Assembly (NCBI RefSeq): GCF_900115225.1
Contig: NZ_FOVR01000002.1
Span: forward strand, 1-64,000
Source: Cohaesibacter marisflavi
Lineage (GTDB): Bacteria > Pseudomonadota > Alphaproteobacteria > Rhizobiales > Cohaesibacteraceae
Reading direction: 5' to 3'
Length of the DNA stretch: 64,000 nt
The position numbers and the translations under genes were made by a program. How positions within the stretch are numbered: the first letter of the stretch is position 1; the number at the start of each line of letters is the position of its first letter. Shown here piece after piece: positions 1 through 13,740 of this stretch. Under the pieces are notes generated by a model. It had not been told where the DNA came from. It saw only the letters and a list, made by a program, of their open reading frames with translations, and did no database searches.

Positions 1-881
1 TCCACGGAGCTGGATGACAGATCCACCGCGGTTGGCGCATCATTGGTGCCGGTGACTTCAATGGTGACGGTGCCCTGATCGGTGGAGCCATTGCCATCAT
101 CTGCGGTATAGGTAAAGGAGACCTCACGGCTCTCACCCACAGCCAGATCATCAAAGGCCGTGCCCGGATCAAAGCTGTAGGAGCCGTCGTCATTCAGCGT
201 AACGATGCCCTCGGAGGGCTGGCCATCAAGGCTATAGCTGATCGTATCCCCATCCAGATCGGTCGCGGTGACAGAACTGGAAAGAACACTATTCTCGCCT
301 GTGGTCTCTGCGATGTCGTCTGCTTCAACAGGTGTGTTTTCCTCTGGTGTGCCGCCTCCATTTGCAGGAGGCAGCGTGCCACCCGAGGGTGACGCCGTGT
401 TGATCGGGCTGCTCTGTGCCGTCGGAAGAACAGAGGCCTCATCGTCGCTAAGCGGAGCTTCGCTGCGCGTCAAGTCTGCCGAGCCATTGTTGATGGAGAG
501 GATAGGGCTTTCCTGACCTGCGTTGGCAATATCTTCCGGGGCTGACAATCCGGAAGAGGAAACAGGAGAGACAAAATCATCACCAGCCGGGGCAGATGCA
601 AGCGAAGAGGGCTGTGTCGACAGAGAACCAGAGCCAACATCGGCAGCGCTGCCATCTGCTTCACCGGGTGACTGCGTCGGAAGCAGCGTTTCGTCCTCAT
701 TGGCGAGGCCATAATGAAGGTTCGGGTTCAGGATATCCTGACGCAGTGCAATATGGTCGCCGGTGTCGTAGTCACTGGCTTTTTCCATTTCTGCTTTTTG
801 CAGGGTCTGCTGGGCGCGGTTGGATTCAAATTTGGATGCAGCCGCTTCGGATTTTACATCTGGGGTATTGGTGTCAGCCAT
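1..881 (-). CDS. Large VCBS-repeat surface protein, N-terminal part (runs off the left edge)
   Basis: An open frame runs leftward from an ATG at 881 and reaches base 1 without a stop, so at least 293 residues are present and the C-terminus is missing. A good ribosome site (TTAAGGAA) precedes the ATG. The protein begins MADTNTPDVKSEAAASK, without a cleavable signal peptide. Residues about 60-190 are a low-complexity Ser/Pro/Ala/Glu linker. After that comes a repeat of the VCBS/cadherin-like type, with DLDGDTISYSLDG, then FTYTADDGNGS, then VTGTNDAPTAVDL; the last is the classic VCBS boundary motif. Such proteins are usually giant adhesins or biofilm matrix proteins exported by type I secretion through a C-terminal signal, which would lie outside the window. 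The divergent gene cluster at 1159-8737 encodes a complete type I exporter, presumably for this protein. Repeat number and the secretion signal cannot be judged here. Confidence 0.85.
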   Translation of the reverse strand, partial: MADTNTPDVKSEAAASKFESNRAQQTLQKAEMEKASDYDTGDHIALRQDILNPNLHYGLANEDETLLPTQSPGEADGSAADVGSGSLSTQPSSLASAPAGDDFVSPVSSSGLSAPEDIANAGQESPILSINNGSADLTRSEAPLSDDEASVLPTAQSSPINTASPSGGTLPPANGGGTPEENTPVEADDIAETTGENSVLSSSVTATDLDGDTISYSLDGQPSEGIVTLNDDGSYSFDPGTAFDDLAVGESREVSFTYTADDGNGSTDQGTVTIEVTGTNDAPTAVDLSSSSV

Positions 882-1158: not shown

Positions 1159-2970
1159 ATGATGACAGGTCGCAAGCCTGAAAAACCAAACGGCATGATC
1201 GCTGCCTTTCGAGCTGGCGTAGCGCGGTTCCACGCGGTTTTTCAACCTCCTAGCTCCATGCAGACAACATGGTTCGCAGAACAGGTACGTGTTCCCAAGC
1301 GGATCATGGCGGCGTCTTTTGTCATCAATATGCTCGGACTGGGTATGCCCTTGGTCATCTTGCAGATTTATGACCGCATCATACCCAACCAGTCTTATGC
1401 GACGCTGTTCTATTTGATTGCTGGTCTCGTCACCGTGCTGATCCTTGATACCCTTCTGAAAGTGGTTCGCTCGCATATCTCCGGCTGGTCTTCATCCTAT
1501 ATTGATTATGTGTCAGGCGTGGAGGCGATCCAACGGATCTTGCGAGCGCCGCCCGAGGCTTTGGAAAAGAGCGCGGCCAGTACGCATATTGATCGCATGA
1601 ATGCGCTCTCGACCACTGCGCGTATGTTTGCCGGTCCAGCCCGGATGGGGCTGGTTGATTTGCCCTTTATCTTCATTTTTCTGGGCGTGATGGCCATCGT
1701 CAGCCCGACCATCGCCGGATTGCTGGTTGCTGTCTTTTCCATTTTCGCCTGGCGGCTGCTCAAGCGCGCCAAGGATATCCAGAGCCTGCAGGATGAACGC
1801 CAACAGTTGGATCGGCGCAAATATGACTTCGTGATTGAAGCTTTGTCGGGCATTGAATCGATCAAGACCATGTCTTGTGAGCCCCAGATGATGCGCCGTT
1901 ATGAGCGGCTGCAGGAAGCCATTGCCGTTGCCTTTCATCGTTCGGTCAAACTGGACGGGGCAACGCAGTCCCTGAGTGCTTCCTTTGCTTCCATCACCAT
2001 GATCACGATTGTTTCCAGCGGGGCCTTGCTTGTCATTGAGGGCACCCAGTCCATTGGGTCGCTGGCTTGTTGTCTGCTGCTGGGGGGCCGGGCGGTCGAG
2101 GTTCTGGTGCGTTCTGTTCGCTCGTGGAGTGAATTGAGTAATTTCGATCTGGTCAAGCAGAATGTTGACGAACTCCTGTCGGTCAATCCAGAGCCGGACA
2201 AGGTGATGGCTCCTGCCGAACTGGCGTCCGGAGAGGTCATCCTGGATGAAGCTGTTATGGCGTCCCGAATGGGCGATGGCCATGGCGCTTACCGGATCTC
2301 TATGATCATTCCCCATGGGGCCACCATCGGGATCAAGGGCAATCTGACGAGCGATGATCATGATTTCCTCAGAATTCTGCGCACCAAGATCGCTCCGGAC
2401 GGGGGCAATATCCTCTTGGGTGGGCGTTCGATCCACGATCTGGTGAACTCTGATGTTTCTGCTTCCATTGCCTATGTTTCCAACAGTCCGGCTATTTTCA
2501 GCGGATCGATTCTGGACAATCTCACGCTGTTCAACCCTCGTGAGGGGTTGCAGAATGCGCGTGAAGCCGCCCAATTGATCGGGCTGGAAAGTGACATCCA
2601 ACAACTGCCTCATGGCTATGACATGATGCTTGGTTCGGGTGGCAACGAAACGCTGCCGCCGAGCTTTCGCCAGCGTATCTGCATTGCAAGAGCCATTGCC
2701 AGTAAGCCCAAAATTCTCATTCTGGAAGAAGCCAACGCCATGCTGGATCAGCGCTCTGACACCCTTTTACGCAAAGGGATAGAGGCCTTGCGTGGCTCCA
2801 TGACCATTATCTTCTTGTCAAACCGTCCCTCCTTTCTCTCCCTTGCCGATCAGCAGGTCATTCTCAAAGATGGTGCGCTCATGCCGTTTGAGGGCGCCCA
2901 AGCGCGTCAACAGGCTGCATCGCGACCAGACGCCAAAGACGCCAAATCAGCCGTTGGAGGCGTGGAATGA
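1159..2970 (+). CDS. Type I secretion ABC transporter subunit with degenerate nucleotide-binding domain
   Basis: This 603-residue protein has the layout of a type I secretion permease/ATPase. Membrane segments fall in about residues 45-330, and an ABC domain from about 360 ends near 580. The ABC domain has lost most catalytic motifs. The Walker A position reads GIKGNLTSDDHDFL, with no GKS/T lysine. The Q-loop Gln is Asn (YVSNSP). The LSGGQ signature reads LPPSF. Walker B ends ILILEEANAMLD, and the switch His is Asn (FLSNRP). It is therefore probably an ATP-binding-impaired partner in a heteromeric exporter with the next gene, which overlaps it by 4 bases. ATG at 1159 or 1162 gives the frame; an out-of-frame ATG at 1146 with a better ribosome site opens only an 11-codon peptide. 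The substrate is inferred to be the divergent VCBS protein. Confidence 0.85.
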   Translation: MMTGRKPEKPNGMIAAFRAGVARFHAVFQPPSSMQTTWFAEQVRVPKRIMAASFVINMLGLGMPLVILQIYDRIIPNQSYATLFYLIAGLVTVLILDTLLKVVRSHISGWSSSYIDYVSGVEAIQRILRAPPEALEKSAASTHIDRMNALSTTARMFAGPARMGLVDLPFIFIFLGVMAIVSPTIAGLLVAVFSIFAWRLLKRAKDIQSLQDERQQLDRRKYDFVIEALSGIESIKTMSCEPQMMRRYERLQEAIAVAFHRSVKLDGATQSLSASFASITMITIVSSGALLVIEGTQSIGSLACCLLLGGRAVEVLVRSVRSWSELSNFDLVKQNVDELLSVNPEPDKVMAPAELASGEVILDEAVMASRMGDGHGAYRISMIIPHGATIGIKGNLTSDDHDFLRILRTKIAPDGGNILLGGRSIHDLVNSDVSASIAYVSNSPAIFSGSILDNLTLFNPREGLQNAREAAQLIGLESDIQQLPHGYDMMLGSGGNETLPPSFRQRICIARAIASKPKILILEEANAMLDQRSDTLLRKGIEALRGSMTIIFLSNRPSFLSLADQQVILKDGALMPFEGAQARQQAASRPDAKDAKSAVGGVE

Positions 2971-5501
2971 TAGACGATACAAGAAGGAGAAACGGCCAGT
3001 CTTCCAATAAGGAACAGCCCGGGCCAGAAGAGCAAAGAGCGCAAGGGGTTGGCAAGCTTCAGATCAAGCCGATTGCACCAGCCAAGCGTAGCGGCAGGGG
3101 CAAGGCGCGGGGCAAACCGATGTTGCTCAAGCGGGCCGACGACAATCCGCTTGAAGGCGCAACCCTATCCGAAGCGGCCCGTCATGCCAGCGAAGAGGAT
3201 GTGAGTCTTGCGGAGCTGGCAGATTATTCGGCTGATCAACATTTTGCGGCAGATGTAGGCAAGTCAAAGCCTGAAGAGCGGAAGGATCGCAACGCTGAGG
3301 AAGCGTATCGGCCAGCTTGTAGTAGCGAAAGCTTGTCTGGGCAGGAGATGCCCTTCTCTGATTTTGAACAGCGTCTTGGTATCAAAGAACGCTGGTCGGG
3401 GATTGATTATACCAGTTCGGCAGGCCGGTGCGTTCAGGTTTTGCTGGCGCTTATCGGCTGGGCGGGGAGCGGACGTCATCTGGCGCAGGTGCTGCCCCAT
3501 TTCAATACCGTTCATGACATGACGGGGCTGAGAGCCGTTCTGACACGGCTCAATTATGTAGCCATTTCGGATGAAGCCAAGCTTGCCACCCTGTCGGAAG
3601 AAAAGCTGCCCTGCCTGTATCAGGATGAAGCGGACGACACTGTCCGTATCGTTCTTTCCGTCGACTTTGGTGCCGATCGGATAACCTGCTTTAATGGTCG
3701 GACCGGCGAGGAGGAGATCATTGCCTGCCCCGGGCAGCCGGTGATCATCCACCATATCAAGCCGTTGGACGTGGTCAGCCGCACCCGTTTTGTCCAATCC
3801 TTCGGCTGGGTGACCCACGCTGCGGCATCCTTTCGCAAGCTGTTCTTCTCGCTGTTTGTCATCAATTTCGGCATCAATCTGGCCGCCATGGCCGTGCCCA
3901 TCTTCATCATGACTGTCTATGGTTACGCGATCCCGTCCAAAGCGCCGGGTAGTCTGATGATGTTTGTCCTCGGCGTGGGCATGATCGTTGCGGCGGACTA
4001 TGCGCTGCGGTCCCTGCGTACGCGCATTCTGGCCTATGTCGGCGCTCGCTTCGATACCGCTCTGTCGGTTGAGGTCTTCCAGCGCCTTCTCTATCTGCCC
4101 TATAGCATGGTGCAGAATGCCTCCATCGGTGCGCAGCTGGCGCGATTGCGGCAATTTGAAAAATTGCGTGAAATCTTTCTGGGTTCCTTCGGCACCGCCG
4201 TTCTGGACCTGCCCTTCGTGCTCGTCTTTATCACGGCCATTGCGCTGATCGGCGGCTGGATCGCGGCCATTCCTGCTACGCTGGTGGGGCTCTATGCGAT
4301 ATTGGCCATGGTCACCATTCCGATCGCCAAGCGCCAGACCATGCAATCGGGCGATGCCAAATCCAAGAAACAGAACATCATGATGGAGCTGTTTCTGATG
4401 CATCGCGAAATCAAAAATGTCGGTGGGGAAGCCATCTGGCAGAAACGCTATGAGGACGCAGCCGCCAGCTTTGCTGCTCTTGATTTCCGTGCGCAGCATT
4501 TCTCCCGCCAAGTGCAGACCATCTCGCAAGCCCTGTCCATGGGGGCTGGCATCACCACCTTGGGAGCAGGTACGATCATGGTGATGGAAGGGGATCTGGG
4601 CGTTGGCGGATTGATTGCGATCATGGCCCTCATCTGGCGGGTTCTGGCGCCCCTGCAGAATGCCTTTCTCAGCCTTTCCCGTGTGGGCAAGCTGATTGAA
4701 GCCATCCGCATGGTGAATAATCTGATGCGCACCCAGCCAGAGCGCATGCCCGGTATCGTGCCGAGCATTTCGCGTAAATTTCAGGGGCACATATCAACCA
4801 AGAATCTATCCTTCCGTTATCCGCAGGCTGCAGACGCCGCGATCAAGAATGCCAATGTGACCATCAATCCAGGCGAAATCGTCGCCATTACCGGACCAAG
4901 CGGCGGCGGTAAATCCACTTTCCTTAAATTGCTGGCCGGTCTTTATCGTCCTGTCGCTGGTGCGGTGGGTTTTGACCATCTGGATATCCGGCAGATCGAT
5001 TTGGGCGAATTGCGCTTCGAGATCAGCTACCAGCCAGACAATGCCACTTTTTTCTACGGAACGGTTGCGCAGAATTTTCATCTCAATGACCCTGAGGCCG
5101 ATTGTGCCAAGATGGCGGGGCTCATGCAGACCTTCGATATTGAGGCAGACCATCCGGATTTGCCTGAGGGGATGGAAACACGCCTGAAGGCGGAAACCGT
5201 GCATCAGATGTCGGATGCGCTCAAACAGAAGCTTTTGCTATGCCGCAGCTTCAGCAAATCCGCGACCTACTATTTTCTTGACGAGCCCGCCAACTATCTG
5301 GACTTCGAAACCGATCACAAATTCATGGATCACCTGCAAGCCATGCGGGGCGAGGCTACCATTCTTTTTACCACGCAGCGGCCTAGCCACATGAAAATGG
5401 CAGACCGCATACTGGTGCTGCATGAAGGGCAGGTCATCATGAATGGGCCGCCTGAAAAGATCTTGCCGCAATTGGACAGCTTCAACAAATCGGTTGCCTA
5501 A
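2967..5501 (+). CDS. Type I secretion ABC transporter subunit with long N-terminal extension
   Basis: This 844-residue protein partners the preceding subunit and overlaps it by 4 bases (ATGA). Residues 1-130 are charged and low in complexity. About 140-270 resembles the C39-peptidase-like domain of HlyB-type exporters, with no evident catalytic Cys-His pair. About 285-560 carries the membrane domain and 600-840 the ABC domain. Walker A is intact (GPSGGGKST, about 642-650) and Walker B is YYFLDEPANYLD, but the signature reads MSDAL instead of LSGGQ and the switch region reads FTTQRP without His. Taken with the upstream subunit, one composite site keeps only a Walker A/B and the other keeps almost nothing. 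Energy use in this exporter must differ from canonical homodimeric HlyB/LapB. Family assignment is firm; the mechanism is inference. Confidence 0.85.
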   Translation: MIDDTRRRNGQSSNKEQPGPEEQRAQGVGKLQIKPIAPAKRSGRGKARGKPMLLKRADDNPLEGATLSEAARHASEEDVSLAELADYSADQHFAADVGKSKPEERKDRNAEEAYRPACSSESLSGQEMPFSDFEQRLGIKERWSGIDYTSSAGRCVQVLLALIGWAGSGRHLAQVLPHFNTVHDMTGLRAVLTRLNYVAISDEAKLATLSEEKLPCLYQDEADDTVRIVLSVDFGADRITCFNGRTGEEEIIACPGQPVIIHHIKPLDVVSRTRFVQSFGWVTHAAASFRKLFFSLFVINFGINLAAMAVPIFIMTVYGYAIPSKAPGSLMMFVLGVGMIVAADYALRSLRTRILAYVGARFDTALSVEVFQRLLYLPYSMVQNASIGAQLARLRQFEKLREIFLGSFGTAVLDLPFVLVFITAIALIGGWIAAIPATLVGLYAILAMVTIPIAKRQTMQSGDAKSKKQNIMMELFLMHREIKNVGGEAIWQKRYEDAAASFAALDFRAQHFSRQVQTISQALSMGAGITTLGAGTIMVMEGDLGVGGLIAIMALIWRVLAPLQNAFLSLSRVGKLIEAIRMVNNLMRTQPERMPGIVPSISRKFQGHISTKNLSFRYPQAADAAIKNANVTINPGEIVAITGPSGGGKSTFLKLLAGLYRPVAGAVGFDHLDIRQIDLGELRFEISYQPDNATFFYGTVAQNFHLNDPEADCAKMAGLMQTFDIEADHPDLPEGMETRLKAETVHQMSDALKQKLLLCRSFSKSATYYFLDEPANYLDFETDHKFMDHLQAMRGEATILFTTQRPSHMKMADRILVLHEGQVIMNGPPEKILPQLDSFNKSVA

Positions 5502-5690
5502 GACAGATCTCTCAAACAGACGTCTTTTGGGCAAGGATGTATTAACCCTAAGCGCGCTATTGTTGACTTGGTGTTGTGGCATAGGCTGCTCGCGAACATG
5601 TGGGATCATATTCCAGAAGGGAAAGCTGGTCGGTTTTCCGGTCTCGAGTATGAGCATAACGGGTACGGGTCTTGCGCTTTTCCTAGGAAA

Positions 5691-7052
5691 ATGCGAGGGC
5701 ATTCCGGGGTGAATTCAGTGAAGTTGTTTGCTTCAAAAAGCACAGGTCTTGACTCCAAGACCCTGACATTGCCGCTGGCGCTGGAGGCTGAACAGCCGCC
5801 CCAGCTCTTTGCCTATGTGGTGACGGGGTGCTTTATTTTTCTGGGAGCCTTCATCATCTGGGCCTTTGTCACCTCTGTGCTGGAGGTTACCCATGCTGGC
5901 GGTCAGATACAGCCGGCTGGCTCTGTCCAGACCATCCAGCATCTTGAGGGTGGCTATATCGACCAGATTCTGGTGTCCGAGGGCGACAGGGTCAAGGCTG
6001 GCCAGCCGCTGGTGCGTTTGCGCCCGACGGCAACCGAAAGCGAGCGCGACCAACTGGCCATCAGGGCTGCGTCCCTTCGTATGGCGATCTCCACCACTGA
6101 TGCTCTCATGCAGCAGCAGGAAAGCGTTTCCTTTGGCGAGGAAGGTCGCCTTTATAGCAACATTGCGCAGTCGCAAATGAGTGTCTTTTCCTCCGAGAAA
6201 GACCGTATCAATCGCGAGCTGGCCAAATATGCATCCCAGTTGGCCCGTCGCGAGGCGGAATATCGGGCGACGATTGCAGAGCAGAAAAGCGCCGTAAAGC
6301 GCATGGAGATTGCCAAGGAGCAGTTTACGATGCTCGATGGCCTGCTCAAGCAGCAATATGCATCCCGCCGCTCGGTGCTGGAAGCTGAAGCCGCGCTGGA
6401 AGAAGCGCGCTCCCGCCTTTATTCTCTTGATGGCCGGCTCTCGACAACGCGCGAGCAGGTCAAGGAAGCCCAGATACAGTTGGAAGAAGCTCGAGCCAAG
6501 ATCTTTAGCGATCTGGCCAAGGAAAAGTCCAAGAATGCCAGCGAACTGGCCGAGGTGGATCGCCTTTTGACCAAGCAGCAGGATCGTGTCACCAGCCTTG
6601 ATCTGACTGCGCCGACGGATGGCATTGTGCAGGAACTGCCGGTCAATTCGGTGGGGGCGGTGGTTCGCTCCGGCGAAGTGGTGGCGCGGATCGTGCCCGA
6701 TGACCGCAAGATCATCGCCGAGGTGCGCGTCAAACCGAAAGATATCGGCCATATCCATCTCAATGCCGACGCCAAGGTAACCGTTTCAACATTCGACCCC
6801 TATGTTTTCGGCTCGCTGGAAGGCAACGTGAAGACCATTTCGGCAACCTCCTTTGAGGATGAAAATGGCCAGCCTTATTTCAGGGTTCAGATCGCGCTTG
6901 ATCACAACGAGTTCAATCGCAAGGGCATGGCCTATCCGGTATTACCGGGCATGGTCGTGACCGCTGATATCGTGACTGGCTCCAAGTCGCTTGCGCGCTA
7001 TCTGCTTAAGCCGGTCTATCGATCCATGGATGTGGCTTTCTCCGAGCGCTGA
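5691..7052 (+). CDS. HlyD-family type I secretion membrane fusion protein
   Basis: This is the periplasmic adaptor linking the ABC exporter to an outer-membrane channel. From ATG 5691 it is 453 residues, the usual HlyD/LapC size. A cytoplasmic N-tail is followed by one membrane segment (FIFLGAFIIWAFVTSV, about 43-60). Next are a biotinyl/lipoyl-like half with the family hallmark IQHLEGGYIDQILVSEGDRV, long alpha-helical coiled-coil hairpins (about 120-300), the second lipoyl half (LTAPTDGIVQELPV) and a C-terminal beta-barrel. The start is uncertain: the frame is open from TTG 5568 and ATG 5598, and GTG codons at 5709 and 5718 are alternatives. ATG 5691 is preferred because AGGAA lies just upstream and the length fits. 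It is third in the secretion operon, after a 189-base gap that contains no other gene. Confidence 0.88.
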   Translation: MRGHSGVNSVKLFASKSTGLDSKTLTLPLALEAEQPPQLFAYVVTGCFIFLGAFIIWAFVTSVLEVTHAGGQIQPAGSVQTIQHLEGGYIDQILVSEGDRVKAGQPLVRLRPTATESERDQLAIRAASLRMAISTTDALMQQQESVSFGEEGRLYSNIAQSQMSVFSSEKDRINRELAKYASQLARREAEYRATIAEQKSAVKRMEIAKEQFTMLDGLLKQQYASRRSVLEAEAALEEARSRLYSLDGRLSTTREQVKEAQIQLEEARAKIFSDLAKEKSKNASELAEVDRLLTKQQDRVTSLDLTAPTDGIVQELPVNSVGAVVRSGEVVARIVPDDRKIIAEVRVKPKDIGHIHLNADAKVTVSTFDPYVFGSLEGNVKTISATSFEDENGQPYFRVQIALDHNEFNRKGMAYPVLPGMVVTADIVTGSKSLARYLLKPVYRSMDVAFSER

Positions 7053-7231
7053 CACTCCATGAAAGTCCTTGAGATGAATGGGTCGGATCCCGGGCCGCTT
7101 TTCTCAACATATCCTTGATTTAATTGCTCATATGGGCCGACAACTGGTTTGCATGTCTGCATATTTCCGCTTTATTAACCATAATTCCATAAGACTGGAG
7201 GGAGGTGACGCGTAAGCGGCGAGCTCCAACC

Positions 7232-8737
7232 ATGTCCTCGCAGTGGAAGATCAGCATGAATGGCAAAGAGAGAACAGGTATGGCAATTGCCACGACGGGC
7301 AAGGCCGAAGGGGGCTCCCGTCGGGTCGGGCTTGGCGCCCGCTTTGCCTCTTTGCTGCTGAGCGCTTCCCTGTGTCTTTTGGTGCGCCCCGCGCTGGCGG
7401 ACAATCTGGCACAGATGCTCTATGACGTTTACGACAACAATCCCGAGATCCACGCATCGGAAGCCGGCCTTGCCATCAGGCAGGCCGAAACAAAAAAGGC
7501 CAATGCGGCCTTCATGCCGCAGGTCAGCGCTTATGCCTCCCAGTCGATGGTGGAGGAACGGCTCAAGTCGGGCCGCACCGAGCGTACGCGCACCAGCCAG
7601 TATGGCATCAAGGCCAGCCAGCGCCTGTTTAATGGTTTTCAGGGCAGGAACAATCTGATCAAGGCCAAATATGAAGAAAAGTCTGGCTTTTATCTGCTGA
7701 AAAACCGGGAGCGAGAAGTCCTGCTCGAAGCGGTCAAGGCTTATATGGATGTTTATGCCGCGCGCAGGATGATTGCCTTGCGGCGCGACCATGTGGCCAA
7801 TCTGGAAAAGCAGCATAGAGCAACAAGAGCCCGCATTCGTGCCGGAGAGTTGACCAGAACCGATCTGGCCAAGACCGAAGCGTTGCTCTATCGGGCCCGA
7901 GCTGCACTGGAGGGGGCGCACGCCGATCTGGGCGGAGCGTCCGGTCGCTATGAAGCGCTGGTGGGCTATCGTCCCGGCGAGTTGATTTATCCGCAGATGC
8001 CTGTGCGCTATTTGCCTGCCGATGAAACCGAGGCGGTGAAAAAGGCCCTGCGCATGCACCCCGACCTGAGGGCTTCACGCGCCAATGACAAGGCGGCAGA
8101 CTATGCGGTCAAATCTGCACAAGGGGCTTTTCTACCCACGATCGATCTGAATGGGGATATCTCGGAGAATTTGGCTTCAAGCGCGGCGCAAACCAACAAG
8201 TCCGAGCGCAGCCTTTCCTTGCGCCTCAGTCTGCCTCTGTTTGATGGCGGTGCACGCTCCGCCGAAGTACAGAAGGCACGGGCTGCGCACAGCCAGCAGG
8301 TTCATCAGACCAATGCTTTGCGGGCGCGGATCAAGGCCAACGCGCGTGAGCAATTTCTCAGATATCAGGCCGCAGTCGCATCCATGCGACAGGCGAGCGC
8401 AGAAGTAAAGGCAGCCAGCAACCTGCTGCGCGGCATCAAGATGGAAGAGAAGGCCGGGCAACGCTCCTACCTTGATATTCTGGATGCAGAAGTTTCACTG
8501 CTTGATGCCCGTGAGCTGGAAATCTATTCACAGGCAGACAGCGTCATCGCGATCTACAGCTATCTCGCAGCCACCGGTCAGTTGACTGTTTCTGGTGCTC
8601 GCAAGGAATATGTAAGCAATGATCCACAAGCCGCCGCTGCTGTTGCCAGAGCCCGGCAAATGGCAGAGCTGAAAGCAAGGCCTGCCAAGAAGGCTGGACC
8701 TCGTCTGTCCGATGACCCCTGGAATGGTCTGCGCTGA
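7232..8737 (+). CDS. TolC-family outer-membrane channel of the type I system
   Basis: This TolC/OEP-family protein is the outer-membrane and periplasmic exit duct for type I secretion. From ATG 7232 it is 501 residues. An N-region rich in Arg is followed by the hydrophobic core FASLLLSASLCLLV and an ALA-D cleavage site, a normal signal peptide. Two OEP repeats follow, each starting in the TolC manner (the first with NPEIHASEAGLAIRQAE, the second around MHPDLRASRANDKAA), plus long helical stretches. Possible starts are GTG 7205, ATG 7232, 7256 and 7280; all keep the signal peptide. It closes the four-gene exporter. The order ABC-ABC-HlyD-TolC, with the substrate gene divergent, is typical of large adhesin loci. 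No obvious terminator follows it. Confidence 0.88.
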   Translation: MSSQWKISMNGKERTGMAIATTGKAEGGSRRVGLGARFASLLLSASLCLLVRPALADNLAQMLYDVYDNNPEIHASEAGLAIRQAETKKANAAFMPQVSAYASQSMVEERLKSGRTERTRTSQYGIKASQRLFNGFQGRNNLIKAKYEEKSGFYLLKNREREVLLEAVKAYMDVYAARRMIALRRDHVANLEKQHRATRARIRAGELTRTDLAKTEALLYRARAALEGAHADLGGASGRYEALVGYRPGELIYPQMPVRYLPADETEAVKKALRMHPDLRASRANDKAADYAVKSAQGAFLPTIDLNGDISENLASSAAQTNKSERSLSLRLSLPLFDGGARSAEVQKARAAHSQQVHQTNALRARIKANAREQFLRYQAAVASMRQASAEVKAASNLLRGIKMEEKAGQRSYLDILDAEVSLLDARELEIYSQADSVIAIYSYLAATGQLTVSGARKEYVSNDPQAAAAVARARQMAELKARPAKKAGPRLSDDPWNGLR

Positions 8738-8807: not shown

Positions 8808-8964
8808 ATTTACGATAGTCATACCTTTTGGACATCGGAAGCCAACTTTGCTCATTTTTGACCTGTGTCATTAACGTCTTTGTCCTACAGTGTCTCGAAA
8901 TTCGTCGAAGCCGTTCGCTCTTGGGGAAGAGCGGAAAACGCACAGGGGACACGCGGGGCTCAAA

Positions 8965-11115
8965 ATGGCACTTATCTTGATCGTTGATGATCAAAACACA
9001 AACAGACAAATTTATGCTCAGATCGCACGGCGTATTGAAGCCGAAATCGAAGTTGTTACCTGCTCGGGGCCAATCGAAGCCCTTTCATGGTTGGCACAAA
9101 ACAGCCCCGATCTGATCCTGACTGACTTCAGTATGCCGGGCATGCAGGGGGATGACTTTGTCGGTCAAATCCGCTCTGACAGACGTCTGGCAGACGTACC
9201 AGTCATTGTCATCACCGTATTCGAGGATCGGCGCCTGCGGCTTCGGGCTCTGGATGCAGGTGCGACGGATCTACTCATCAGTCCGGTCGACCACCGGGAG
9301 TTCATCGCCCGGGCGCGTAACCTTCTCAAAATGCATCGCCAGAGTAAGGTCCTCTCTAACCGGGCCAACTCGCTGCTTGAGTCCCTGAAAAAAAGCGAAA
9401 GCATCCTTGCCTGGACACAGCGCGAAAGTGAATCGCGCCTTGTGAATGTGATCAACACGCTCCCAGTCATGGTCAGCGCAACCGATCTGGATGGTTGCTA
9501 TCTGTTCATGAATGTCAATCAGGCCAACTATCTTGGCCTCAAGGTCGAGCAGGTTGTCGGGCGCCACAGAGCCGAAATCTTCGGCTCGCAGGTTGCAGAG
9601 CGCTATGATTCCATCGACCAACTGGTCATTGCATCCAATCACGGCATCCGTTCCTTTGAAGAAGAAATCGTTGGTGCGGACGGCAACAAACGCATCTTCC
9701 TGACCAACAAATCGCCCCTCGTGGAAGGGGAAAATGTCATCGGTGTTGTAACCTCGTCGCAGGATATTACCGACCGCAAGGCGGCAGAAACCCATTTGCA
9801 TCATCTGGCCCATCACGACACGCTCACCGGTCTGGCCAACAGGGCGTTGCTGAGAGATCGGGTCGAACGCGAAATCGGGCGCTGTCGCCGCGGTGATGGA
9901 CGCTTTGCCCTGCATTTGATCGACCTAGATGGCTTCAAGCAGGTTAATGACGTGCATGGCCATGCGACGGGCGATGAATTGTTGGCCCGCGTGGCCGAAG
10001 GTCTGCGTATTGTCGCGGGCAAGGAAGACCTTGTGGCACGCCTTGGGGGCGACGAGTTCGCCATTCTGCAATCCAACATCACCTCCGAATCGCAGGTGGA
10101 GGATATGTGCAAGGCGGCGATGGAAATCATGCCCGGCGCGATTGCCGGTGTGCAGCTATCGACGCCTGTTACAGCCTCGGTCGGTATTTCGGTGCACCCG
10201 GAAGACGGCAACAGCTACGAGCATCTCATGCGCAATGCCGACCTTGCCATGTATCGCACCAAGGCCGCGAGCGGCAATGGCTTCAGCTTCTTTGTCTCGA
10301 ACATGGATGCGCGCGCCCGTGAAGAGCGGCGATTGGATGCCACCTTGCGCGAAGCACTGGAGAGCAACCGGTTCGAACTGCTCTATCAGCGTCAGGTCGA
10401 CATCAAGACAGGCGCAATCGTTGGCTGCGAGGCATTGCTCAGAATGCGCGAAGCCGATGGCACCCTCGTCGCACCAAGTGAATTTCTGGCCCGGGCTGAA
10501 CGCAATGGCATGATCATGCCAATCAACGAATGGGTCATTCGGGAAGCCTGCAGGCAAGGGGCCCGATGGCGCGAAATGGGGCTGCCGGAATTTTCCGTCG
10601 GGGTCAATCTGTCGCCGGTGCAGTTCCAGCGACAATCGGTGCCGTTGCTGGTCGCGCGCATTCTTTCCGAAACGGGGCTGCCTGCGCACTTGCTGGATCT
10701 GGAACTGACCGAAAGCATCGTTCTGCATGATCGCAAACAGGTTGCTCTACAGCTTCAGCAACTACGCGATCTGGGGGTTAAAATCTCTATTGATGATTTC
10801 GGAACCGGCTGTTCTTCCCTCTCATATGTGAAGCATTTCCCGGTGGATCGTCTAAAAATCGACCAGTCCTTTGTGCATGATCTTCTTGAAAATCCATCGG
10901 ACGCCGCCATCGTTCGGGCGACTATCAATCTGGGGCATTCTCTCGGTTTCGAGGTGATCGCCGAGGGGGTCGAGACGGAAGAGGTTCTCCGCCATCTGGA
11001 GCTGGAGCATTGTGACAAGGCGCAGGGCTACTATTTCGGAAAGCCGCAATCGGCAGAAAAACTGCAACTGGCCATTCAGGCTCAGATGCCTACCAAACTG
11101 GTATCTCTGGGGTGA
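8965..11115 (+). CDS. Response regulator with PAS, GGDEF and EAL domains (c-di-GMP turnover)
   Basis: This 716-residue protein carries, in order: a receiver domain (about 1-125; acidic pair D8-D9, phospho-acceptor D54 in ILTDFSMPG), a short helix, a PAS domain (about 165-285), GGDEF (about 290-455; RLGGDEF at 361-365 intact) and EAL (about 470-710; CEALLRM and DDFGTGCSSL intact). Both cyclase and phosphodiesterase motifs are kept. The inhibitory RxxD site before GGDEF reads GKED, so product inhibition is probably absent. The receiver strongly resembles that of RpfG-type regulators (VDDQNTNRQIY, ALDAGATDLLISPVDHREF), although the output differs. ATG 8965 is chosen because the receiver begins there and GCGGGG precedes it; GTG 8890 is an upstream alternative. 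The hybrid kinase 21 bases downstream is the likely phosphodonor. Confidence 0.88.
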   Translation: MALILIVDDQNTNRQIYAQIARRIEAEIEVVTCSGPIEALSWLAQNSPDLILTDFSMPGMQGDDFVGQIRSDRRLADVPVIVITVFEDRRLRLRALDAGATDLLISPVDHREFIARARNLLKMHRQSKVLSNRANSLLESLKKSESILAWTQRESESRLVNVINTLPVMVSATDLDGCYLFMNVNQANYLGLKVEQVVGRHRAEIFGSQVAERYDSIDQLVIASNHGIRSFEEEIVGADGNKRIFLTNKSPLVEGENVIGVVTSSQDITDRKAAETHLHHLAHHDTLTGLANRALLRDRVEREIGRCRRGDGRFALHLIDLDGFKQVNDVHGHATGDELLARVAEGLRIVAGKEDLVARLGGDEFAILQSNITSESQVEDMCKAAMEIMPGAIAGVQLSTPVTASVGISVHPEDGNSYEHLMRNADLAMYRTKAASGNGFSFFVSNMDARAREERRLDATLREALESNRFELLYQRQVDIKTGAIVGCEALLRMREADGTLVAPSEFLARAERNGMIMPINEWVIREACRQGARWREMGLPEFSVGVNLSPVQFQRQSVPLLVARILSETGLPAHLLDLELTESIVLHDRKQVALQLQQLRDLGVKISIDDFGTGCSSLSYVKHFPVDRLKIDQSFVHDLLENPSDAAIVRATINLGHSLGFEVIAEGVETEEVLRHLELEHCDKAQGYYFGKPQSAEKLQLAIQAQMPTKLVSLG

Positions 11116-11136: not shown

Positions 11137-13740
11137 ATGGCCTTGCGGACTTCTTTTCTTGAAACTGTTATCGATCCGGTTATGCGGCTTGTTGGCATTC
11201 TGTCTCATAGGCCAGACACGGAGCATGTGGCAATTATCCTGCGTTTTGGCATGATAGTGGCGCTTTGGGCCTTCGTCGCCTTTGACTATCTCTTCCTGCA
11301 GAAAATACCTGCAGGTGGGTATGAGCAAATTTTCATGGCAACAAGCCTATATGGGCTTGCTCTGGCTCTGGAATCGACGCATCTGGCTTTTTCTCCCAAT
11401 GCCTCCAGTGGTCGACGCTTGATGGCGATTTGGGCCGATCAGGTGCTTTTGACCTATTTTGCATTCATTCTCGGGCCAACAGGTACGGTGCTATATCCCT
11501 TCTATTTGTGGAATATGCTGGCTGCAGGCTTTCGCTATGGCACGGTTTATCTTTTGATTTCCGCCATTTCTATCGTCGCCGTTCTGTCCGTTCACTATCA
11601 TATATTCGAACTTTGGCAGACGAGCTATCTTGTCTGTCTGCTGCAAATCAGCTTTGTCATCATTCTGGCCTTTTCGATGACATCTTTCCTCAATACGATC
11701 CGGCAGGCCATTGCGACAGCAGAGGCTGCCAGCAGTGCAAAGTCGGCGTTTCTTGCCGGCATCAGCCACGAAGTGCGGACACCGCTGCAAGCCATCAAGG
11801 GGCTGAGTGATCTGCTCGACGATACCAGACTGGATACGGATCAGCGGCGCATGGTTGGCACCATCTCTCAGGCTGGTGATACGCTTCTGGGTCTTATCAA
11901 TTATTTGCTCGATTATGCCAGAGCCGAAAATGGCACCATGCCGGTCAATGATGACGATTTTGACCTGTCCAGGCTCCTGGGCCGCCTTCATCGGCTTTTC
12001 TCTGAACAGATGCGGCAGAAACATCTGGATCTTAATATCAATTTTGATTCCTCGCTGCGCCGTCTTTATCGTGGCAATGAGCGCTTTCTGGAAGACATTC
12101 TGACCAACCTCATGGGCAATGCGGTCAAATTCACCCATCAGGGACAAATCACCTTGCGCGCACGGCTGGTGGAAGAAAATAGCCAGATGCACCGCATCTG
12201 CTTTGAGGTGATCGACACCGGCATCGGCATTGCACCGGAAGCCCAGCAGCGGATTTTCGATCGATTTACCCAGTCCGATGATGATGTGATGGCGCAATTT
12301 GGTGGCTCTGGTCTGGGGCTTGCCCTGTGCCGCCAATATGCAGAACTCATGGGGGGACATATTCAGGTCGCCTCTAAACAGGGAGAGGGCAGCACTTTTG
12401 CCTTCACCGCTCCCTTCGGCCTCGCATTAAAACACAGTCAGACAGCAACAGCAGAAGATGAAAGCGAAGAGACACCCAAACGGTCGATCATGATGATCAC
12501 CAGAAACCAGCAGCTGGTTACCATGTTGCCGCCTGCCGTGCCCTATTGTGATGTCCATCACGATCTGCGCACGGCCCTGACGGCGCTTACCAGCTTTTGC
12601 GAAGACCAGATGCCGTCCGTGGTGGTGATTGATCGTCAGGGGCTGGAGTGTGATATTGCGCTCACCCAGATGCAGATCGCATCCTGTAGCCGAAGCGGAT
12701 TGCCTTTTGTGCTCTGGATCTGTCGCGCTGATGAACAGGCGTCCAATCTGGCTCTTGTTCACCCTCAGCATGGGCTGGCTTTTCTCAATCGCACCGACTG
12801 GCACTATCGCATGAGCAAATTGCTGCGCCTTGCCGAGCAATTGCATGGACATGGCAGCGTCCGAAGCGCCAGTCGTGACACAGAGATAAGCAAGCCGGCG
12901 GAAAGTTTGCAGATTCTCGTTGCCGAGGATAATCGAACCAACCAGATGGTTCTTGAAAGAATGCTGGCCAGCCTGGGGCATCAGGTGACTCTGGCCGAAA
13001 ATGGCAAACAGGCCATCGCCGCAATTCGCAATCGCAAATTTGATCTGGCCTTTCTTGATATCCGGATGCCGGTTCTGGATGGGCTGGAAACAGCGCGTCG
13101 CATAGAGGCTCTGGCGGGTGCCGGGGACTTACAGCACCCACCGCACCTCTATGCCCTTACCGCCGATCCCGGTATGGAGATCAAGGACAGGTGTCTGCAG
13201 GCGGGCATGAAAGCTTGCTTGCTCAAACCGGTGGATCGTTACCGGCTCAAGGAATTGCTCGATATATTTATCGAGCAGAAACAGCAAATTGCTGACAATA
13301 GAAAAACAATCACTATTTCTGACAATTGGGGGTTAGAAGAAATGTACACCACTCAGATTATTGAAGATTTGAGAGATCTTGGGGGCGACCAGTTTGTCGT
13401 CGATCTCGCTCATCAATTCAGTGAAGACGGCATTGCCGCCTTGCATCGCCTGCATGATGCTGTGAATCATCGCGATGATGCCGAGTTCCGTGACGGGGCT
13501 CACGCCTTGCGCTCGGCGGCGGCCAATATCGGTGCGCGCTCGGTATTCGATCTCTGCCTCTCATGGCGAGACATGACTGCGGCCGAACTCGATCAGGAAG
13601 GCTCGGGTCACATGGTGCAACTGGCCGCCAATCTGTCCGAGGCCATTACGGATCTTGAGCATATCCTGTCGGTTTCGCTGCCAAAGCCGGAGGCTGCGCG
13701 GCAATCATCCTATCAGAAAGAGTTGATCGTCAATCACTGA
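11137..13740 (+). CDS. RpfC-like hybrid sensor histidine kinase (5-TM, HisKA, HATPase, REC, HPt)
   Basis: This 867-residue membrane kinase starts with a cytoplasmic segment SHRPDTEHVAIILRF that matches the RpfC N-terminal pattern. About five membrane helices follow up to residue 190. HisKA comes next with ISHEVRTPL (His211), then HATPase_c (N box about 330, DTGIGI, GGSGLGLAL), a degenerate receiver-like linker (about 445-570), a true receiver (LDIRMPVLDG, Asp641) and a C-terminal HPt domain (HALRSAAANIGA, His789). All phosphorelay residues are present. It sits 21 bases after the REC-PAS-GGDEF-EAL gene and is probably co-transcribed with it, so signal is expected to flow H211-D641-H789 to D54 of that regulator. 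Known RpfC senses diffusible fatty-acid signals. No rpfF-like synthase is visible here, so the ligand is unknown. Confidence 0.87.
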   Translation: MALRTSFLETVIDPVMRLVGILSHRPDTEHVAIILRFGMIVALWAFVAFDYLFLQKIPAGGYEQIFMATSLYGLALALESTHLAFSPNASSGRRLMAIWADQVLLTYFAFILGPTGTVLYPFYLWNMLAAGFRYGTVYLLISAISIVAVLSVHYHIFELWQTSYLVCLLQISFVIILAFSMTSFLNTIRQAIATAEAASSAKSAFLAGISHEVRTPLQAIKGLSDLLDDTRLDTDQRRMVGTISQAGDTLLGLINYLLDYARAENGTMPVNDDDFDLSRLLGRLHRLFSEQMRQKHLDLNINFDSSLRRLYRGNERFLEDILTNLMGNAVKFTHQGQITLRARLVEENSQMHRICFEVIDTGIGIAPEAQQRIFDRFTQSDDDVMAQFGGSGLGLALCRQYAELMGGHIQVASKQGEGSTFAFTAPFGLALKHSQTATAEDESEETPKRSIMMITRNQQLVTMLPPAVPYCDVHHDLRTALTALTSFCEDQMPSVVVIDRQGLECDIALTQMQIASCSRSGLPFVLWICRADEQASNLALVHPQHGLAFLNRTDWHYRMSKLLRLAEQLHGHGSVRSASRDTEISKPAESLQILVAEDNRTNQMVLERMLASLGHQVTLAENGKQAIAAIRNRKFDLAFLDIRMPVLDGLETARRIEALAGAGDLQHPPHLYALTADPGMEIKDRCLQAGMKACLLKPVDRYRLKELLDIFIEQKQQIADNRKTITISDNWGLEEMYTTQIIEDLRDLGGDQFVVDLAHQFSEDGIAALHRLHDAVNHRDDAEFRDGAHALRSAAANIGARSVFDLCLSWRDMTAAELDQEGSGHMVQLAANLSEAITDLEHILSVSLPKPEAARQSSYQKELIVNH

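Follow-up and report, generated by a model that had tools for sequence, protein, structure and literature searches.

As read from its sequence, a type I secretion exporter of Cohaesibacter is without any consensus ATP site. It is encoded by two adjacent genes for unlike ABC half-transporters, called ABC1 and ABC2 below, and this pump probably exports a large surface protein. Type I secretion, heterodimeric exporters with unequal sites and the two-ABC MARTX system are already known; a conserved exporter in which no ATP site is consensus is new as far as literature searches show.

The window (the whole stretch of DNA analysed, 64,000 nucleotides) contains the genes in the order ABC1-ABC2-HlyD-TolC, with a divergent VCBS/Ig-repeat gene opposite, and the frames of ABC1 and ABC2 overlap by 4 bases. 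The contig ends within the VCBS gene, the far side of which lies beyond the contig end. The genes were assigned as follows:

3..881, minus strand, N-terminal part of a divergent Ig/cadherin/VCBS-repeat protein, truncated where the contig stops (matches of Ig, cadherin and VCBS type)
1159..2970, plus strand, ABC1, type I secretion ABC half-transporter without an N-terminal C39-like domain and with a degenerate nucleotide-binding domain (NBD) (603 aa; Pfam ABC_membrane 69.2 bits, ABC_tran 34.4 bits)
2967..5501, plus strand, ABC2, type I secretion ABC half-transporter with a C39-like N-terminal domain (844 aa)
5568..7052, plus strand, HlyD-type membrane fusion protein (TIGR01843, 351 bits against a cut-off of 208.65)
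7205..8737, plus strand, TolC-type outer membrane protein (TIGR01844, 238.9 bits against a cut-off of 225.15)

The combination that defines type I secretion in general, one operon in which an exporter-type ABC protein is joined by partners of HlyD and TolC type, was thus found, with TIGR01843, TIGR01844, Pfam ABC_membrane and ABC_tran all above their cut-offs. The first start of the HlyD-type gene is TTG, and the true start may lie later. ABC1 and ABC2, respectively, scored below the cut-offs of the LapB/LssB-type model TIGR03375 (299.4 and 417.1 bits; cut-off, 693.1), the HlyB-type model TIGR01846 (219.6 and 241.8 bits; cut-off, 725.55) and the PrtD-type model TIGR01842 (223.8 and 239.4 bits; cut-off, 510.15), and the window proteins also remained below the cut-offs of the NHLP models TIGR03796/TIGR03797 (153.0-189.0 bits; cut-offs, 853.3 and 709.4). 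A profile search of the window's own genome gave no TIGR03375 match at E 1e-150 or better. No further ABC frame matching ABC1 or ABC2 was detected near the locus in 17 Cohaesibacter stretches of 10-16 kb; an intact type I ABC gene beside the VCBS gene, which an earlier reading of this DNA from its letters and translations (the sequence-only reading) had raised as an objection to its own claims, was likewise missing from these stretches. In the genome of the window, the full-length ABC proteins next in similarity are found on other contigs (C18, C32 and C15), and they have LSGGQ. A PrtD-like exporter of this genome (L071, contig C18) carries Gln at the switch His position (VTQR) and is otherwise canonical, with LSGGQ. 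Promoter and terminator scans gave results at chance level.

The motifs of both NBDs were placed by alignment, and the C39-peptidase-like domain by a TIGR03375 match from residue 155, a fold model and matches to full-length HlyB and PCAT1 chains:

2338..2361, plus strand, former P-loop of ABC1, GNLTSDDH (residues 394-401), with Asp400 at the Lys position
2482..2484, plus strand, Asn442 of ABC1 at the Q-loop Gln position
2653..2667, plus strand, ABC1 signature LPPSF (residues 499-503), near-invariant, which would face the intact ABC2 P-loop
2713..2730, plus strand, ABC1 Walker B ILILEE (residues 519-524)
2821..2823, plus strand, Asn555 of ABC1 at the switch His position
3414..3776, plus strand, C39-peptidase-like domain of ABC2 (about residues 150-270)
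4893..4919, plus strand, ABC2 P-loop GPSGGGKST (residues 643-651, Lys649), intact and near-invariant
5037..5039, plus strand, Asp691 of ABC2 at the Q-loop Gln position
5208..5222, plus strand, ABC2 signature MSDAL (residues 748-752), variable, which would face the dead ABC1 P-loop
5268..5285, plus strand, ABC2 Walker B YYFLDE (residues 768-773), the same in all 18 Cohaesibacter sequences
5376..5378, plus strand, Gln804 of ABC2 at the switch His position

The sequence-only reading had described ABC1 as lacking the Walker A Lys, the Q-loop Gln and the switch His and as carrying the signature LPPSF, and each of these was found as claimed (Asp400, Asn442 and Asn555); the change of the Mg-binding Walker B Asp to Glu523, with the catalytic Glu524 retained, is an addition to that description. 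The former P-loop has no glycine after the first and bears two Asp at the phosphate position. Since this Asp pair is confined to ABC1 of Cohaesibacter and Maritalea (20/20 sequences, and 0/116 other ABC1), a new role for the dead P-loop is suggested. By eye, the A-loop aromatic residue seems to be missing in ABC1, and ABC2 retains its own (LSFRYP). The intact Walker A and B, the signature MSDAL and the lost switch His reported earlier for ABC2 were confirmed (GPSGGGKST, FLDE and Gln804), and the replacement of the Q-loop Gln by Asp691 is a change that had been missed: the segment, which aligns without relative gaps, reads SYQPD against GYVPQ in relatives, with one Gln two residues earlier. Single-chain fold models gave an ABC half-transporter for both ABC1 (mean pLDDT, 80.5) and ABC2 (mean pLDDT, 76.8), with HlyB/D entries as the best solved matches, and in the ABC1 model the helix after the former P-loop is retained (397-407).

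ABC1 was found in all 17 other genomes of the genus that were searched (66-96% identity). Of 23 genomes from the same family and order but outside the genus, 7 gave a match at E 1e-60. The four-gene order ABC1-ABC2-HlyD-TolC was intact in 17/17 other Cohaesibacter. The residue states given above for ABC1 and ABC2, signatures aside, were the same in 18/18 Cohaesibacter sequences; 17 of them have LPPSF as the ABC1 signature and one has LPPGF, and that of ABC2 was clearly variable. Because the states are shared by all 18, the motif losses are not an error of one strain, and the suspicion that homologues carry full motifs and this strain alone is mutated did not hold within the genus. The dN/dS ratios, calculated for nine pairs with a Nei-Gojobori script (one value uncomputable in each NBD and one in the ABC2 N-terminus; several dS > 1), were 0.025-0.049 in the membrane domain and 0.049-0.099 in the NBD of ABC1, and 0-0.051 in the membrane domain, 0.023-0.080 in the NBD, 0.050-0.161 in the C39-like domain and 0.176-0.367 in the disordered N-terminus of ABC2. 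The ABC1 NBD is the less constrained of the two NBDs, yet it is strongly constrained. The earlier argument against decay is supported by these low ratios and by motif states and an operon kept across the genus.

Each site of an ABC dimer is composite: one half contributes Walker A, Walker B and the A-, Q- and H-loops, and its partner contributes the signature (PMC7756269, available text). We define site 1 as the ABC2 P-loop with the ABC1 signature, and site 2 as the ABC1 P-loop with the ABC2 signature. In the 18 Cohaesibacter sequences, the mean frequency of the majority residue at site 1 was 0.993 in the P-loop of ABC2 (96th percentile against same-length windows of its NBD) and 0.989 in the signature of ABC1 (95th percentile), and at site 2 it was 0.743 in the P-loop of ABC1 (40th percentile) and 0.744 in the signature of ABC2 (19th percentile), each ranked within the NBD of its own subunit. 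A constrained signature in the subunit with the dead P-loop is the pattern expected of a heterodimer, not of two homodimers. Six residues were scored per site (Lys, Q-loop Gln, Walker B Asp and Glu, His and signature Gly-4); in the window pair, site 1 keeps 3/6 (Lys, Walker B Asp and catalytic Glu) and site 2 keeps 1/6. One degenerate site, as in heterodimeric exporters, was therefore found (site 2), whereas the other site, which is consensus in such exporters, is not so here (site 1). The heterodimer with one weak and one dead site, as the earlier reading had proposed, is supported by gene fusions in other genomes, the 4-base overlap in 17/17 other Cohaesibacter, the dN/dS ratios and the constraint on composite sites, and from these we infer that ABC1 and ABC2 would form a heterodimer in Cohaesibacter. 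Site logic does not explain everything, as there is fixation within the dead half-site of ABC1 too: the H-loop stretches are invariant in both subunits (SNRPS and TQRPS), the ABC1 Walker B stands at the 78th percentile, and N442, E523 and N555 of ABC1 are invariant in 18/18, unlike what is predicted for a simply dead site, which counts against the explanation preferred below.

Judged by profile matches, the ABC1-ABC2 pair is a proteobacterial family. An ABC1 profile matched at E 1e-120 or better in 51 of 398 genomes sampled from the phylum, the window's included, and in a scan of named genomes the loci of ABC1 relatives (the best 80 of 149 were taken) ranged from Cohaesibacter and Maritalea to Kiloniellales, Rhodospirillales, Amphritea, Sedimenticola and Thiodiazotropha. 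ABC1 and ABC2 were adjacent on one strand in 90/90 loci measured, and outside Cohaesibacter their 4-base overlap recurred in 37 of 73 loci. Nine duplicate loci, nine short loci duplicating larger stretches, L070 (a single-gene exporter) and the ABC1 of L133 (split in two frames) were left out, and 102 of 109 pairs were scored, 7 being dropped for gaps, X or a wrong frame; all family counts are of sequences, many of them close relatives, and not of independent events. The Gln at signature position 5 was absent in 136/136 ABC1 and in 106/106 readable ABC2 (110 aligned, 4 gapped), whereas it was present in 29 of 30 LapB-type single exporters of the same class, drawn from the loci found with TIGR03375. 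These single exporters have signature Gly-4 in 29, P-loop Lys, Q-loop Gln and catalytic Glu in 30, and switch His in 28 cases, and LSGGQ in 23, against LPPSF and MSDAL in the window subunits. Typical signatures of the family are L[PS]xG[VIML] in ABC1 and [LM][PS]xG[FL] in ABC2, and in distant relatives the P-loop, Q-loop and switch His are frequently intact.

Among the 102 scored pairs, the P-loop Lys is present in both subunits in 71, in ABC2 only in 29, in ABC1 only in 2 and in neither in 0; both catalytic Glu are missing in 3. All six scored residues are kept at both sites in 4 pairs, and even these are without the signature Gln. Site 1 is better retained than site 2 in 77 pairs, equally in 19 and worse in 6. 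On the tree, the P-loop Lys requires a minimum of four changes in ABC1 and of one in ABC2. ABC1 and ABC2 form one clade each, with trees that branch largely alike by eye, and a sister-group origin of the two could be neither backed nor dismissed (p-AU 0.467). A linked loss of the ABC1 Lys and the ABC2 signature Gly, which belong to the same site, was not shown across the family, the independent contrasts being too few; the link within a subunit (ABC1 Lys with ABC1 signature Gly) is if anything stronger, again over few independent contrasts. Two loci from Alphaproteobacteria MAGs (L119 and L128) are the mirror image of the window pair, with the ABC2 P-loop Lys lost (GHNGCGAST) and the ABC1 Lys kept. 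Outside Cohaesibacter, L127, L146 and L235 have lost both switch His, and their ABC2 catalytic Glu is replaced by Thr or Ser.

Fusion in one reading frame, seen in other genomes, speaks most strongly for the pair acting as a single transporter. Thirteen of 20 matches with frames over 1000 aa were sampled, and 11 of these 13 loci, picked for a long frame, have ABC1 followed by ABC2 in a single frame of 1298-1386 aa. These natural single-chain fusions (L216, L218-L224 and L226-L228) have the architecture of a full-length type I secretion ATPase.

The divergent VCBS-repeat protein is the probable substrate of the exporter. Its gene is present in 15 of 17 Cohaesibacter stretches, and in 11 Cohaesibacter genomes it was uninterrupted in 7 (1903-3179 aa), split in 3 and unscorable in 1 for masked bases. 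The sequence-only reading spoke of a giant exported protein; going by the length in the 7 of 11 relatives with an unbroken frame, the likely substrate is large but not giant. The genes split into several frames (L047, L050 and L058, in G003, G001 and G012) may reflect phase variation or an assembly error in repeats. RTX nonapeptides and C-termini that look alike by eye were seen in the repeat proteins of 4/4 relatives examined, and the window copy is cut before that part; the shared C-terminus may be a secretion signal. In the 80 loci (best of 149), an RTX or VCBS-like frame was found in 29, many contigs ending too early to show one.

Just 3' of the TolC-type gene lies a gene for a response regulator with PAS, GGDEF and EAL domains (8890-11115, plus strand), and 15 of the 17 other Cohaesibacter stretches have a match in the corresponding position, which hints at control of the exported protein by c-di-GMP. 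The next gene (11137-13740, plus strand) encodes a hybrid histidine kinase that has receiver and Hpt-like domains. The genome has two LapG-type genes (PF06035), and as both are on other contigs no LapD/LapG link is claimed.

We consider it likely that ABC1 and ABC2 pair as an obligate heterodimer that powers type I export of the divergent VCBS/RTX adhesin-like protein through a HlyD/TolC channel, with site 1 as the sole and slowly hydrolysing MgATP site and site 2 as a hinge. Site 1, made of the P-loop, A-loop and Walker B of ABC2 and LPPSF of ABC1, would be the only site to bind MgATP and would close the NBDs; MgATP binding there is plausible from Lys649, Asp772, Glu773 and the A-loop Tyr, and ATP binding would be restricted to this site. 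Hydrolysis at site 1 would be slow because the Q-loop Gln, the switch His and LSGGQ are all replaced, and it would have to rely on substitutes for them. Site 2, made of the ABC1 P-loop and the ABC2 signature, would be unable to bind ATP and would act as a permanent structural hinge. With one binding site and a hinge, ATP at site 1 would gate or reset the exporter, and part of the directionality may come from Ca-dependent folding of the substrate once it is outside; both the slow hydrolysis and the contribution of such a ratchet are guesses. By analogy with the HlyB-HlyD structure, which has three HlyB dimers and six HlyD (PMC11026475, available text), the channel would hold three heterodimers. 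The suggestion made earlier, that export uses unusual energetics, is reasonable for such an arrangement.

The same sole nucleotide site, without Q-loop Gln, switch His and LSGGQ in 18/18 sequences, might also bind ATP with negligible hydrolysis, so that nucleotide exchange and folding of the substrate outside drive export. For this account speak the ATP-gated channel model discussed for HlyB and the Ca-driven ratchet reported for CyaA (PMC5018854, available text), but 18/18 Cohaesibacter retain the catalytic Glu of ABC2 (FLDE), which suggests that hydrolysis is still selected, and HlyB needs hydrolysis. In the same source, as far as its text was available, the HlyB His662-to-Ala variant binds ATP and dimerises and neither hydrolyses ATP nor secretes, and the rate of HlyA secretion is independent of Ca, which is against a general Ca ratchet. 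We regard export by ATP gating without appreciable hydrolysis as unlikely. The His662 variant bears on the slowly hydrolysing heterodimer as well, since an exporter with Asn and Gln at its two switch positions might be inactive unless compensated. An equally unlikely version, limited to Cohaesibacter and Maritalea, is a one-ATP exporter in which the invariant Asp-Asp of the rebuilt ABC1 P-loop would replace the ATP phosphates and, by locking onto the signature helix of ABC2, make a hinge free of ATP, and the sole site would be an ATP-gated latch with substituted gamma-phosphate sensors, the pull coming mainly from folding outside.

ABC2 alone has an intact P-loop and Walker B together with the C39-like domain, and could be imagined as a homodimer with two weak sites, ABC1 being a separate regulator or substrate receptor. 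Such a homodimer predicts a constrained ABC2 signature, whereas it is that of ABC2 which varies (19th percentile) and that of ABC1 which is near-invariant (95th); ABC1 also has the full half-transporter fold in its model, and fusions of ABC1 with ABC2 exist in other genomes, all of which make this arrangement improbable. The loss of many catalytic motifs and the split of the neighbouring repeat gene in 3 of 11 Cohaesibacter genomes would suit a decaying or dead system whose export has been taken over by PrtD-like exporters elsewhere in the genome, and the split genes count against the obligate heterodimer as the explanation. However, the transport domains of ABC1 and ABC2 alike have dN/dS values well under 1, the four-gene order is intact in 17/17 other Cohaesibacter, and the repeat gene is uninterrupted in 7 of 11 (1 unscorable), so that decay is very improbable.

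The drive of type I secretion is an open question between continuous spending of ATP and ATP that only gates the channel (PMC5018854, available text). An exporter with a single non-consensus ATP site under purifying selection would be a direct, natural test of the need for ATP in secretion, and in the lineage of type I secretion to which it belongs, neither half has LSGGQ. The family offers a graded series, from the few pairs with all six residues at both sites (4/102) to the extreme of Cohaesibacter, and the natural single-chain fusions may ease purification as defined heterodimers. In literature searches, of partial coverage and therefore no proof of absence, no report was recognised of the ABC1-ABC2 family, of a type I secretion ATPase degenerate in both halves or of type I secretion in Cohaesibacter.

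Compared with known type I systems, the fold and the HlyD/TolC operon partners are common to HlyB and LapB/LssB-type exporters; HlyB is the best solved match of both subunits and ABC2 has the C39-like domain, but HlyB and LapB/LssB-type exporters are encoded by one gene, whereas two unlike subunits are found here. In the Vibrio MARTX system the two ABC proteins RtxB and RtxE both appear necessary for secretion, and a heterodimer has been suggested (PMC3034196 and PMC4316617, available text). According to the description in these sources, the MARTX order is rtxB-rtxD-rtxE, with the fusion protein gene between the ABC genes, whereas the ABC genes are adjacent and overlapping here; the lack of a C39-like domain in ABC1 is counted as a further difference from RtxB/RtxE. 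NHLP bacteriocin exporters (TIGR03796/TIGR03797) of Legionella also have two ABC genes per locus, one with a C39 peptidase motif (PMC6959600, available text), and differ in that the window proteins fall far under the cut-offs of these models. In the bapP cluster of Pseudoalteromonas tunicata, an adhesin gene is next to ABC genes in tandem, whose products were modelled as a heterodimer by the authors who described them; by its description in the available text (PMC12153261), the cluster includes a separate LolD-like ATPase, for which the window operon has no counterpart.

Unequal sites, the degenerate one pairing the P-loop of one half with its partner's signature, are likewise found in TmrAB, TM287/288, TAP, MsRv1273c/72c and Pdr5, and in Pdr5 the Walker A, Walker B, His and signature are all changed in one site (PMC7756269, available text). 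These transporters keep one consensus site, whereas the retained site here is without the Q-loop Gln, His and LSGGQ. The degenerate site of MsRv1273c/72c still binds ATP (PMC12038006, available text), whereas the P-loop of the corresponding site has been lost here. The order of the two halves in the natural fusions agrees with that of human full-length ABC proteins, the weaker site being at NBS1 in both (PMC7756269, available text).
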